Of a stretch of 64,000 bases of DNA, positions 32,097 through 52,512 are shown one piece after another. The stretch lies in contig NZ_CP081958.1 in NCBI RefSeq assembly GCF_019823105.1, forward strand, positions 1,364,001 through 1,428,000. The letters are read 5' to 3'. Source of the DNA: Halobaculum magnesiiphilum. Its GTDB lineage: Archaea > Halobacteriota > Halobacteria > Halobacteriales > Haloferacaceae. Below the pieces are notes generated by a model, which had not been told where the DNA came from, ran no database searches, and saw nothing but the letters and a program-made list of their open reading frames with translations. The first letter of the stretch is position 1, and each line of letters starts with the position of its first letter. The position numbers and the translations under genes are program-made.

Positions 32097-32543
32097 TTAC
32101 GGCGTTTCGACCCGGAGCCGCCGGAACGACTCGCCGGTCCAGCGGTACGCGACGACCGCCTCGGGGGCGACGATCGCGTAGACGTAGCCCGTCCACGTCG
32201 CGCGATCGCGGTCGGTGTCGGAGGGCGCGGCCGGGCCGCGGGGATGGCTGTGGTAGAAACCGACCACGTCGCGGTCGCGGGCCTCGGCGTCCTCGATCAC
32301 GGCGACCGTCTCCGCGGGGTCGAGCTCGTAGCGGCGCTCGGGGTCGGCGGCGACGTTGTCGACGGGGACCGCCTCGGCGACGCGGTCGGCCGTGCCCGCG
32401 TCTTGCTCCTCGCGTTCCGCGTCAGCGTCGCCCGCGCGGTCGCCGAGGAGGATCCCGCACACTTCGGCGGGCGCGCCGGCGACGCGGCGCTCGTGCAGGG
32501 TGTCGCGCACGTCGGCCGGGAGCAGGAGGCGGTCGGCGGTCAC
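32097..32543 (-). CDS. JAMM/MPN+ metalloprotease, desampylase-like
   Basis: A 148-residue JAB1/MPN+ domain protein with a complete zinc motif: Glu27 in PAEVCGILLGD, then H98-S-H100-P and S108/D111 in PRGPAAPSDTD, matching E-x-HxHx7Sx2D. Such archaeal proteins (HvJAMM1 in Haloferax) cleave ubiquitin-like SAMP modifiers from targets or process SAMP precursors. It has a GTG start. It lies 19 bases upstream of the IPP isomerase-like gene's stop on the same strand. The ubiquitin-like gene at 46209 is a possible client, though not adjacent. Confidence 0.88.
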   Translation of the reverse strand: MTADRLLLPADVRDTLHERRVAGAPAEVCGILLGDRAGDADAEREEQDAGTADRVAEAVPVDNVAADPERRYELDPAETVAVIEDAEARDRDVVGFYHSHPRGPAAPSDTDRDRATWTGYVYAIVAPEAVVAYRWTGESFRRLRVETP

Positions 32544-46208: not shown

Positions 46209-46880
46209 ATGGAGCTCACGCTGAAGTTCTTCGCCACCTTCCGGGAGGCGGTCGGCTCGAAGATCGTCGACCGGTCGTTCCCCGACGCGAGCACCGTGGG
46301 GGACGTGCTCGCGGCGCTGGAGTCCGAGTACGACGGGCTCGCCGGCAACCTGCTGGAGGACGGGGACCTCAAGCCCCAGATCAACGTCCTGCTCAACGGG
46401 CGCGAGGTCCTCCACATGGACGGGATCGACACCGCGGTCTCCGACGGCGATACGATCGCGGTGTTCCCGCCGGTCGCCGGCGGCGCCGTCGACTGCGACC
46501 GCGCCGGCGACGACGGAGACCCGTCCGACGTGCGAGCCGACGGCGGCGACAGTCGCGACCGGGGCGACGGCGAAGCCGACGACCGGGGCGACGTGGCGGA
46601 CGCCGACGAGACCGAAACCCGGGTCGAGGCGTACCGCGGGATCTCCCGACGACTCGCCGTTCGCTATCTCCGGAACCTCGGCGGCGACGCCGACGGCCCC
46701 GACGAGGCGGCCACGGAGGTCGCCGGCGACGGCTGGCGTGCGTCCGTCGCCGCCGACGAGGTCGCCGCCGCGGGCGCCATCACCCTCACCGAGGTGACCG
46801 TCACCTTCGAGGGCGACCCCGCGGTGCTCGACGACCTGATCGAGCGGTTCGGACGGAAGGCGATGCGCGCCGGCGGGTGA
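46209..46880 (+). CDS. ubiquitin-like/MoaD (SAMP-type) protein with C-terminal extension domain
   Basis: A 223-residue two-domain protein. Residues 1-92 are a MoaD/SAMP1-like beta-grasp domain that ends in VFPPVAGG (Gly91-Gly92), exactly where a free SAMP1 ends. It continues through a 45-residue acidic Asp/Arg linker to a second domain (about 137-223) starting YRGISRRLAVRYLRNLGG and ending AMRAGG, a second C-terminal Gly-Gly. The second domain resembles the DUF1952-type domain found after some MoaD-like proteins. Activation by an E1-like enzyme could use either tail. The TATA-like TCTTTTTACG lies 23-31 bases before ATG 46209. Confidence 0.8.
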   Translation: MELTLKFFATFREAVGSKIVDRSFPDASTVGDVLAALESEYDGLAGNLLEDGDLKPQINVLLNGREVLHMDGIDTAVSDGDTIAVFPPVAGGAVDCDRAGDDGDPSDVRADGGDSRDRGDGEADDRGDVADADETETRVEAYRGISRRLAVRYLRNLGGDADGPDEAATEVAGDGWRASVAADEVAAAGAITLTEVTVTFEGDPAVLDDLIERFGRKAMRAGG

Positions 46881-47356
46881 TGCCCGGCCGCGACGACGGC
46901 GACGGCGACAGCACCGGCGACGAGCCCGACTCCGGCCGCGACGGGCCCGAGCCCGACGACGCGGCCGATCCGTCGTACGACCCCGACACGCGGGCGATGG
47001 GCCACCCGATCGACCCCAACGCGCTCATGATCGCGGCGGCGACCGCGAGCGTCGGCCCCGGTCGGCTCCCGGAGCTCCTCCGGACGGCCGACGAACACCT
47101 CCGCGAGCGACTCGACGAGTACGACCGCACCTACGAGTGCGTCGACGAGGACGCCGACGCCGGCACCACGACGTTTCTCGTCCCCGACGGTCACTGGGAC
47201 GAGATCGGCGACGAACTCGGCGTGAACAGCCGCGAGGCCGACGCGCTCCGGCGCGCCCACGAGCAGCACCTCCTGCGGGTCGGAACGGAACGACGCCGAC
47301 GGCGGGAGTTCGAGTCGGCCTTGGAACTCCGGGAGGCGGTGGTCATCGGGGAGTGA
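46880..47356 (+). CDS. haloarchaeal protein of unknown function, overlapping the ubiquitin-like gene
   Basis: A 158-residue protein. Residues 1-40 are disordered and acidic; the conserved part includes GHPIDPNALMIAAATASVGPGRLPELLRTADEHLRERLDEY and a C-terminal helical region RREFESALELREAVVIGE. ATG 46880 shares its A with the stop codon of the upstream gene (TGATG), indicating translational coupling and a functional link with the ubiquitin-like protein. No catalytic motif is seen. Confidence 0.65.
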   Translation: MPGRDDGDGDSTGDEPDSGRDGPEPDDAADPSYDPDTRAMGHPIDPNALMIAAATASVGPGRLPELLRTADEHLRERLDEYDRTYECVDEDADAGTTTFLVPDGHWDEIGDELGVNSREADALRRAHEQHLLRVGTERRRRREFESALELREAVVIGE

Positions 47357-50583: not shown

Positions 50584-52512
50584 TCAGTCGTCAGCGGGCG
50601 CGACGCCCGAGTCGCCCGAGGAGACGCCGGTTCCCGGCCCGATGTCGATGTCGAGCTCGTCGAGCTTCTCGTCGGGGACGACGCCGTCGACCCAGCCGCG
50701 GACCTCGTAGTACTCCTCCTTCATCTCGGGGAGCTCGCAGTACTCGCCCTCGGAGGCACCCTGGCCGGGGATGCCGTCCGCGAGGAACCGGTCCGGCAGG
50801 GAGTCGTCGCTCCCGTCGAAGCCGGCGAGGTTGTTGTAGTAGCGCTCGAGCGTGTAGACGCGCTCGCCCGCCTCCAGCAGCTCGTCCTCTGACACGTCGC
50901 GGCCCGTCATGCCGTTGTACTGCATGACGTACTCCTCGATGCCCTCCGCGAACGCGTTGAACTTGCAGATGTCGAACGAGTCCGAGATGGCGTGCATGTC
51001 CTGGAACGTCGCGGTCAGCTCGCCCTTGCCCTCGTACTCGTAGGGATCGACCTTCTGGGGCAGGCCGAGGATCTCCGCCGACGGCGTGTACGCGCGCAGG
51101 TGGCACGCGCCGCGGTTGGAGGTCGCGTACGCGATGCCCATGCCCTTCATGCAGCGCGGGTCGTACGCCGGGATCGTCTGGCCCTTGACCGCCAGGGAGT
51201 TGTCGTGGGCGTCGAAGCGCTCGGCGATGCCGTTGGCGCCCTCCGCGAGCGCGTCCGCCAGCTCGCCGTCGCGGTTGGCGACGTCCTCGATGAGGTCGAT
51301 CATGCGCTCGGTGTCGCCCCAGTCGAGCTGCTCGTCGAGGCCGTCGAGTTTGCCCTCCTCGGACATCTCCATCGCCATCGCCATCATGTTCCCCATCTCG
51401 ATGGTGTCGACGCCCATGTCGTTGCACCGCTGGATCATGACGGCGATCTCGTCGCGCTCGGTGTGTCCGGAGTTCGGGCCCAGCGCGAACGCGGACTCGT
51501 ACTCGTACGACTCCGTGCGCACGTTCATCTCCTCGCCCTTGTGGAGCACGTCGACCTCGACCTCCTTCTTGCAGGCGACCGGGCAGGAGTGACACGTCGG
51601 CTCGTCGACGAGGATGTTCTCGCGGACGTTCTCCCCGGAGACGCGCTCGGCGTCGATGTCGTCGCCCTCGGCGTCGTGCATGGCGGCCGTGGAGGTGTAC
51701 TTCGCGTTCTTCGTGGGGAGCCCGTCCATCTCCTCGGTCGCGTTCATCAGGACGTTCGTGCCGTACAGCGAGAGGCCGCCCTCGTTGGGCGCGGTCACGT
51801 CGGACTCCTGGATGACCTGCATCGCCTGCTGGTACCCCTCCTGGAACGTCTCTGGCTCGGCCGGCTTGGGCATCCTCGTGCCCGATTTAACGACGACCGC
51901 CTTGAGGTTCTTCGAGCCCATCACCGCGCCGGTGCCGCCCCGGCCCGAGGCGCGGTCGTCCTCGTTGACGATGCAGGCGTACTTCACGCCGTTCTCGCCG
52001 GCGGGGCCGATCGCCATCACCGAGACGTTGCGGCCGACGGTGCCGTCGACCTCGTCGTCGAGCGTGTCGATGGTGTCGTGGACGCCGTACCCCGCGATGT
52101 GTCGCGCGTCGCGCAGCTCCACCTCGCCGTCCTCGACGACCGCGTACACCGGGTGGTCGCTCGCGCCGTCGAAGACGAGGCCGTCGAAGCCCGCCCACTT
52201 CAGGCGCGCGCCCGACCAGCCGCCGTGGTGGCTGTCGGTGACGGTCCCCGTCAGCGGGGACTTCGTCGTCACCGCGATCCGACCGCTCATCACGGTCTGC
52301 GTGCCCGTGAGCGGGCCGTTCATGAAGCACAGCCGGTTCTCCGGCCCCATCGGGTCCACGTCCGGCCCCGCATCGAAGACGTACTTCACGCCGAGCCCGC
52401 GCGCGCCGATGTACTTCCTCGCGTCCTCGTCGTCGACGCCCGCGTACGATACGTCACCGTCCGTGAGATCCACGTGGGCGACGTGGTCCCTGAATCCGCC
52501 GAGGTCTGTCAT
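50584..52512 (-). CDS. aldehyde ferredoxin oxidoreductase family protein
   Basis: A 642-residue tungsten/molybdenum-pterin enzyme. The N-terminal domain shows KYIGARGLGVKYVF, NRLCFMNGPLTGTQTVMSGR and GGWSGARLKWAGFDG (pterin binding). The [4Fe-4S] cysteines are in CHSCPVACKK, with the fourth in FDICKFN near the C-terminus. AOR enzymes oxidise aldehydes to carboxylates with ferredoxin as acceptor. TATA-like CCTAAACAAC is upstream (about 18-28 bases). A ferredoxin gene at 4447 and a MoaD-like gene at 46209 are conceivable partners but not adjacent. Confidence 0.93.
   Translation of the reverse strand: MTDLGGFRDHVAHVDLTDGDVSYAGVDDEDARKYIGARGLGVKYVFDAGPDVDPMGPENRLCFMNGPLTGTQTVMSGRIAVTTKSPLTGTVTDSHHGGWSGARLKWAGFDGLVFDGASDHPVYAVVEDGEVELRDARHIAGYGVHDTIDTLDDEVDGTVGRNVSVMAIGPAGENGVKYACIVNEDDRASGRGGTGAVMGSKNLKAVVVKSGTRMPKPAEPETFQEGYQQAMQVIQESDVTAPNEGGLSLYGTNVLMNATEEMDGLPTKNAKYTSTAAMHDAEGDDIDAERVSGENVRENILVDEPTCHSCPVACKKEVEVDVLHKGEEMNVRTESYEYESAFALGPNSGHTERDEIAVMIQRCNDMGVDTIEMGNMMAMAMEMSEEGKLDGLDEQLDWGDTERMIDLIEDVANRDGELADALAEGANGIAERFDAHDNSLAVKGQTIPAYDPRCMKGMGIAYATSNRGACHLRAYTPSAEILGLPQKVDPYEYEGKGELTATFQDMHAISDSFDICKFNAFAEGIEEYVMQYNGMTGRDVSEDELLEAGERVYTLERYYNNLAGFDGSDDSLPDRFLADGIPGQGASEGEYCELPEMKEEYYEVRGWVDGVVPDEKLDELDIDIGPGTGVSSGDSGVAPADD

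Follow-up and report, generated by a model that had tools for sequence, protein, structure and literature searches.

A fused ubiquitin-like and Gly-Gly-ending protein pair in haloarchaea as a candidate linear precursor for JAMM1 cleavage

Results

Organization of the locus

The 64,000-nucleotide stretch of Halobaculum magnesiiphilum DNA analyzed here (contig NZ_CP081958.1, positions 1,364,001 to 1,428,000; hereafter the window) carries a reading frame for a protein composed of a ubiquitin-like (Ubl) domain, a linker and a second small domain. The same window encodes a JAMM metalloprotease and a tungsten aldehyde ferredoxin oxidoreductase (AOR) (Table 1).

Table 1. Features of the window discussed in the text (positions counted from the first nucleotide of the window)
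Feature	Position	Strand	Basis or remarks
Ubl plus second-domain reading frame	46209-46880	+	Intact, 223 aa; ATG at 46209, TGA at 46878-46880
Ubl domain, SAMP3/MoaD type, residues 1-92, PPVAGG end	46209-46484	+	NF041918, TIGR01687, PF02597, 2m19
Internal Gly91-Gly92, candidate cleavage site (after Gly92)	46479-46484	+	Conservation across genomes
Acidic linker, residues 93-136	46485-46616	+	Unconserved
Second domain, residues 137-223, KAMRAGG end	46617-46877	+	Profile, predicted fold
Terminal RAGG, residues 220-223	46866-46877	+	Exact C-terminus in homologues
Overlapping third cluster gene, 158-aa protein of no known family	46880-47356	+	Homologue downstream in most loci
Desampylase-family JAMM metalloprotease of HvJAMM1 type, candidate for the processing step	32097-32543	-	NF041370, PF14464, HSHPRGPAAPSDTD motif
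AOR, convergent neighbour, candidate client	50584-52512	-	PF01314, 394 bits

Residues 1-92 match the SAMP1 equivalog model NF041918 (103.4 bits, cut-off 60), the MoaD_arch model TIGR01687 (72.6 bits, cut-off 49.5) and the ThiS family PF02597 (62.3 bits, cut-off 22.5), and all three matches stop precisely at residue 92. The best relative of this domain in the PDB is Haloferax volcanii HVO_2177 (2m19, E 4.8e-35), named SAMP3 in PMC4500146. Proteins of the MoaD/SAMP type are recognized by a free C-terminal Gly-Gly, whereas in the translated protein PPVAGG occupies residues 87-92 of 223 and its two glycines (91-92) are internal; a free Gly-Gly end of the Ubl arises only once the chain is cleaved. 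The full-length AlphaFold model is poor (pLDDT 53, from a 5-sequence alignment), and statements on fold below rest on a model of the second domain; the full-length model also matches 1v8c in Foldseek, which given its quality carries supporting weight only.

Both Gly-Gly motifs and the TGATG overlap that a preliminary description of this DNA had read from the letters are present, with the A at 46880 shared between the stop codon and the next start codon, and both motifs are invariant in homologues. The same description had left the downstream gene without a family, and its product indeed scored above the cut-off of no Pfam or NCBIfam model. A homologue of this third gene lies downstream on the same strand in 112/124 loci; the family has an acidic, variable N-terminus.

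Fused, tailed and split forms

A search for the Ubl in 392 genomes of the Halobacteriales, followed by inspection of loci, showed that the two halves of the protein are separate genes in most relatives, usually adjacent or overlapping and on the same strand, the Ubl gene ending in PPVAGG and the second-domain gene in RAGG. The fused form occurs in the genus of the window and in parts of several other genera. An assembly error or an oddity of a single genome is ruled out as its origin, since the fusion recurs across 28 genomes. Among 166 genomes, the Ubl ends exactly at Gly-Gly in 73, is followed by a short tail in 65 and is fused to the second domain in 28, such that 93 have a blocked Gly-Gly. 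The tails comprise a single residue in 19 of the 65 genomes and reach 15 residues or more in others. Mere overlap with the next start codon was considered as their origin; it accounts for the one-residue tails (..A TGA) but not for longer tails or fusions. The tree of the 166 genomes requires at least 11 changes between fused and split and at least 20 between exposed and blocked. As far as the literature shows, the natural fusion is new, and so is the wide distribution of tails among SAMP3-type genes of haloarchaea.

Two individual loci illustrate the range of arrangements. In one member of the same genus (G355, locus L030) the halves lie in different frames: the Ubl carries AGDASRGPRS as its tail and the second domain is encoded separately, which makes fusion or fission within the genus a recent event. 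In another locus (L008, 6001-6345) a split Ubl bears a tail with two more Gly-Gly motifs (PPVAGGAGRAGGTDLVDDSDLAGGTH) and is followed by a separate second-domain gene.

Conservation at the internal Gly-Gly

The Ubl was located with a model lacking its last six residues, so that Gly-Gly itself was not selected for. Among 124 distinct loci, drawn mostly from the higher-scoring of the matches listed, the motif is PPVAGG in 123 and PPIAGG in one, and residues beyond Gly-Gly are encoded in 85. Over these 85 loci the per-position entropy is 0 bits at each residue of A-G-G and 2.85 bits at the position immediately after, while the codons of both glycines vary synonymously across loci. By genome, the Ubl Gly-Gly is kept in 166/166, including all 65 tailed genomes; the check proposed in the preliminary description, conservation of Gly91-Gly92 in homologues with the extension, thus returned the internal Gly-Gly in 28/28 fused genomes, a result that speaks for processing. 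The tail of MoaD-type proteins (MoaD, ThiS) is a flexible active end that lies outside the folded core; the observed pattern of constraint is therefore the one predicted for a processed precursor.

These data bear on the alternative, which we consider improbable, that the chain stays whole and works through its terminal RAGG, as a sulfur carrier or modifier of two domains in which the internal Gly-Gly is a relic. The invariance and terminal position of RAGG would suit such a protein, as would the presence of both domains in a single chain with a GGG end in Thermus thermophilus 1V8C. A relic should decay, however, and retention of the internal Gly-Gly in every fused and tailed genome, with synonymous variation of its codons, argues that it is not one. 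The Ubl of split genomes ends at the same Gly-Gly, and the linker, which among the 28 fusions is 0-56 aa long and mostly net negative, speaks against a fixed two-domain unit. Between the two outcomes raised earlier, a precursor or a whole chain active at its last glycines, the evidence favours the precursor, although the invariant final RAGG still needs explaining.

The second domain and its terminal RAGG

A profile of the second domain matches 283/392 genomes of the order and gave no match outside it in a sample of the phylum. Searches of Pfam, NCBIfam and PDB sequences returned no reliable match; weak matches to 8d05 and DUF5376 were discarded as chance. AlphaFold predicts for it a b-a-b-b-b-a fold (pLDDT 89), for which Foldseek gave the C-terminal domain of 1v8c as the sole confident match (TM 0.71 by query, rmsd 1.9-2.1 A over 77 columns), TBP itself not being matched. 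The earlier suggestion of a DUF1952-type domain thus holds at the level of predicted structure and fails at that of the Pfam model (PF09189), which has no match in the H. magnesiiphilum genome. We have accordingly dropped DUF1952 as a sequence assignment and retained a modelled structural kinship with 1V8C.

According to Makarova and Koonin 2010 (PMC2948915), arCOG06308 is a halobacterial family with a TBP-like fold and a Gly-Gly end, whose genes neighbour those of a MoaD Ubl and of two small uncharacterized proteins; the authors propose a Ubl-type activity for TBP-like Gly-Gly proteins. The second domain shares the C-terminal Gly-Gly, the neighbourhood of a MoaD Ubl and a small unknown protein, and the restriction to the order within the phylum sample. 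It is probably a member of arCOG06308, to judge from its close fit to the published description.

The end of the second domain behaves differently from that of the Ubl. In 164/165 genomes the second domain terminates exactly at R[A/S]GG, and residues after it are not tolerated whether JAMM1 is present or absent. This suggests that RAGG must be encoded as a true C-terminus, and hence is used, and that it would not be a product of JAMM1. The contrast between a tolerant first and an intolerant second Gly-Gly is, as far as the literature shows, new. The sole case without a stop after RAGG, in a draft genome (G302, loci L007 and L031), continues in frame for dozens of low-complexity residues and could represent an assembly error or stop loss.

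JAMM1 and blocked Ubl ends

The preliminary description had pointed to the JAMM gene at 32097 as a candidate processing enzyme. Its product scores 160.9 bits with the desampylase model NF041370, above the cut-off of 130, matches PF14464 with 71 bits and contains the JAMM motif HSHPRGPAAPSDTD. It is the one desampylase-family member of the two JAMM proteins encoded by the genome; the other (G000:C1:316540-316845; 42.7 bits to PF14464) is probably of the JAMM2 type. HvJAMM1 cuts a SAMP1-MoaE fusion precisely after Gly-Gly in vitro, and cleavage of this fusion in vivo is jamm1-dependent (PMC4443979). Related events are known elsewhere: in Caldiarchaeum, native SAMP precursors are substrates of CsJAMM (PMC6043591), and in mycobacteria MoaX undergoes cleavage after Gly82 (PMC4326299).

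JAMM1, called present at a match of E 1e-20 or better, was found in 278/392 genomes. Where Ubl ends could be read, they are blocked in 91/133 JAMM1-positive genomes and in 0/30 JAMM1-less genomes that are at least 90% complete (naive Fisher 3e-13, by genome counts). Counted by genus, blocked ends occur in 28/44 with JAMM1 and 0/5 without (Fisher p 0.011). The two blocked loci lacking a detected JAMM1 gene, G008 and G016, come from incomplete MAGs (81% and 59% complete, respectively). Absence of JAMM1 clusters in five or six genera, which leaves the lineage-corrected support modest, and tree-independent pairs do not reach the number needed for significance (3 supported pairs; with complete genomes an average of 1.1 agreed and 0 opposed). 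The distribution is nevertheless suggestive of a requirement for JAMM1 where Ubl ends are blocked, a link that is new as far as the literature shows. In one genome a JAMM1 gene directly adjoins a Ubl gene in divergent orientation (G238:C2:922770-923525).

The modest support after lineage correction leaves some room, if little, for the view that the chain is cut after Gly92 by another protease (JAMM2 or one yet to be recognized), the association with JAMM1 being a phylogenetic coincidence. The genome does contain a second JAMM gene, and the protease that cuts MoaX in mycobacteria is unidentified (PMC4326299). Against this unlikely explanation stand the complete lack of blocked ends in the near-complete JAMM1-less genomes and the experimental cleavage of such a junction by HvJAMM1 (PMC4443979).

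Association with a tungsten enzyme

The SAMP3-type Ubl and the second domain form a set, both being present in 283 and neither in 109 of the 392 genomes (Ubl classes split at a best E of ~1e-18; a script confirmed for the first 155 genomes that the Ubl and second-domain sets are identical). In these 155 genomes AOR is encoded in 103/103 with the second domain and 3/52 of the others. The AOR gene is mostly convergent to the cluster and a few kb away, with the same local order in loci L004-L007. AOR-linked MoaD genes are already known (PMC1779556, PMC2948915), and in Thermococcus Ubls support tungsten-cofactor enzymes (PMC11323500). In Hfx. volcanii, DMSO reductase activity does not need SAMP3, which is found attached to Lys240 of MoaE (PMC4443979). 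Since the set co-occurs with AOR and SAMP3 is dispensable for DMSO reductase, we propose that the role of SAMP3 and its partner may lie in supplying cofactor to AOR, or in controlling that supply, and not in general molybdopterin (MPT) synthesis. The separate-gene state of the second half in most haloarchaea, its probable place in a family published in 2010 and this tracking of AOR all go beyond the preliminary description.

Could the fusion then be a regulatory store, in which the second domain masks the Ubl until JAMM1 releases it upon demand for AOR cofactor? The SAMP1-MoaE and SAMP3-MoaE linkages of Hfx. volcanii are reversible switches controlled by JAMM1 (PMC4443979), which lends the idea a precedent. 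Ubls with just 1-3 extra residues are common, however, and masking by a folded domain is thus not a general theme; we regard this explanation as very improbable.

A further class of beta-grasp proteins was noted around these genes. In the H. magnesiiphilum genome a divergent member with a Cys-Cys end (YPFMYCC; G000:C3, locus L003, 1264-1620, + strand), resembling the halobacterial arCOG00539 described in 2010, is encoded between genes that by eye resemble a radical-SAM protein and a Tat-signal molybdopterin oxidoreductase. Many JAMM1-less genomes (L153-L158, L182-L200) have a Cys-Cys beta-grasp gene right beside the Ubl gene but oppositely oriented, and in L155 (5541-5939, - strand) such a gene lies between the Ubl and second-domain genes.

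Discussion

The comparative evidence presented here makes it likely that the product of the fused gene is a linear precursor, cut by JAMM1 after Gly92 into two partner proteins, and that the freed pair serves the cofactor of AOR. What in most haloarchaea are the products of two genes would thus be made here as one chain. The window's own desampylase (32097-32543) would cut after Gly92, and the sole E1-like enzyme of the genome (UbaA type) would adenylate the exposed Gly-Gly of the freed Ubl, which could then take part in sulfur transfer or conjugation; single E1 and MoaE genes are present in the genome. The same cut would free the TBP-like second protein, which ends in RAGG from the outset, and the pair, along with the product of the third gene, would supply or control a molybdopterin-type cofactor for the AOR encoded nearby. 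The earlier idea of proteolytic processing gains comparative support from the retained Gly-Gly, from split homologues that end there or carry unrelated tails, and from the restriction of blocked ends, two incomplete MAGs aside, to genomes with JAMM1, while the cleavage event itself stays a prediction. Bearing against cleavage, Thermus 1V8C, of the same layout, was crystallised as a single chain of ~165 residues, which indicates that stability without cleavage is possible, at least in the crystal. A bolder extension of the precursor model, which we regard as doubtful yet worth bearing in mind, would have JAMM1 release two structurally unrelated proteins, the Ubl and the TBP-like protein, that are each activated at the terminal glycines. 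The TBP-like one would then be a sulfur carrier or modifier that lacks a ubiquitin fold and, along with the Ubl, is dedicated to AOR.

In the haloarchaeal ubiquitin-like proteins characterised so far, Gly-Gly is, to our knowledge, already exposed upon synthesis. That 93/166 of the SAMP3-type genes examined encode residues past Gly-Gly implies a maturation step, which would add a further task for the desampylase beside the removal of conjugates. The analysis also draws attention to a neglected family that ends in Gly-Gly, lacks the ubiquitin fold and is tied by near-perfect co-occurrence to a Ubl and a tungsten enzyme. The 2010 proposal that TBP-like Gly-Gly proteins act like ubiquitin thereby becomes testable in the genetic model Hfx. 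volcanii.

Several elements of this picture are already known, namely JAMM-cut Ubl precursors and fusions, both protein families, and the fused layout in Thermus. Hfx. volcanii SAMP3 resembles the Ubl domain in its 92 residues and PPVAGG end but stands alone, whereas here a linker and second domain follow. The arCOG06308 proteins share the Gly-Gly end, the halobacterial restriction, and the MoaD Ubl and two small unknown neighbours; the protein described here differs in being fused behind the Ubl, a comparison made with the family as described in the available portion of PMC2948915, which does not mention a Ubl-TBP fusion of the present kind. CsUb-pre with CsRpn11 and CsSAMP with CsJAMM (PMC6043591) provide examples of Gly-Gly followed by residues that require removal by a JAMM-type protease, although CsUb-pre has a nine-residue tail and the present protein a whole conserved partner. 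In MoaX (PMC4326299) and the engineered SAMP1-MoaE (PMC4443979), as here, a Ubl is joined to a partner, and those proteins are cut after Gly-Gly; their partner is the large subunit of MPT synthase, unlike the small Gly-Gly-ending protein found here. The closest counterpart is Thermus thermophilus 1V8C (Ubl plus DUF1952), which has the same domain order, PPVAGG junction, terminal Gly-Gly and second-domain fold. Its second domain is about 22% identical to the one described here, which the Pfam DUF1952 model does not match, and its short junction contrasts with the long acidic linker of the haloarchaeal protein.
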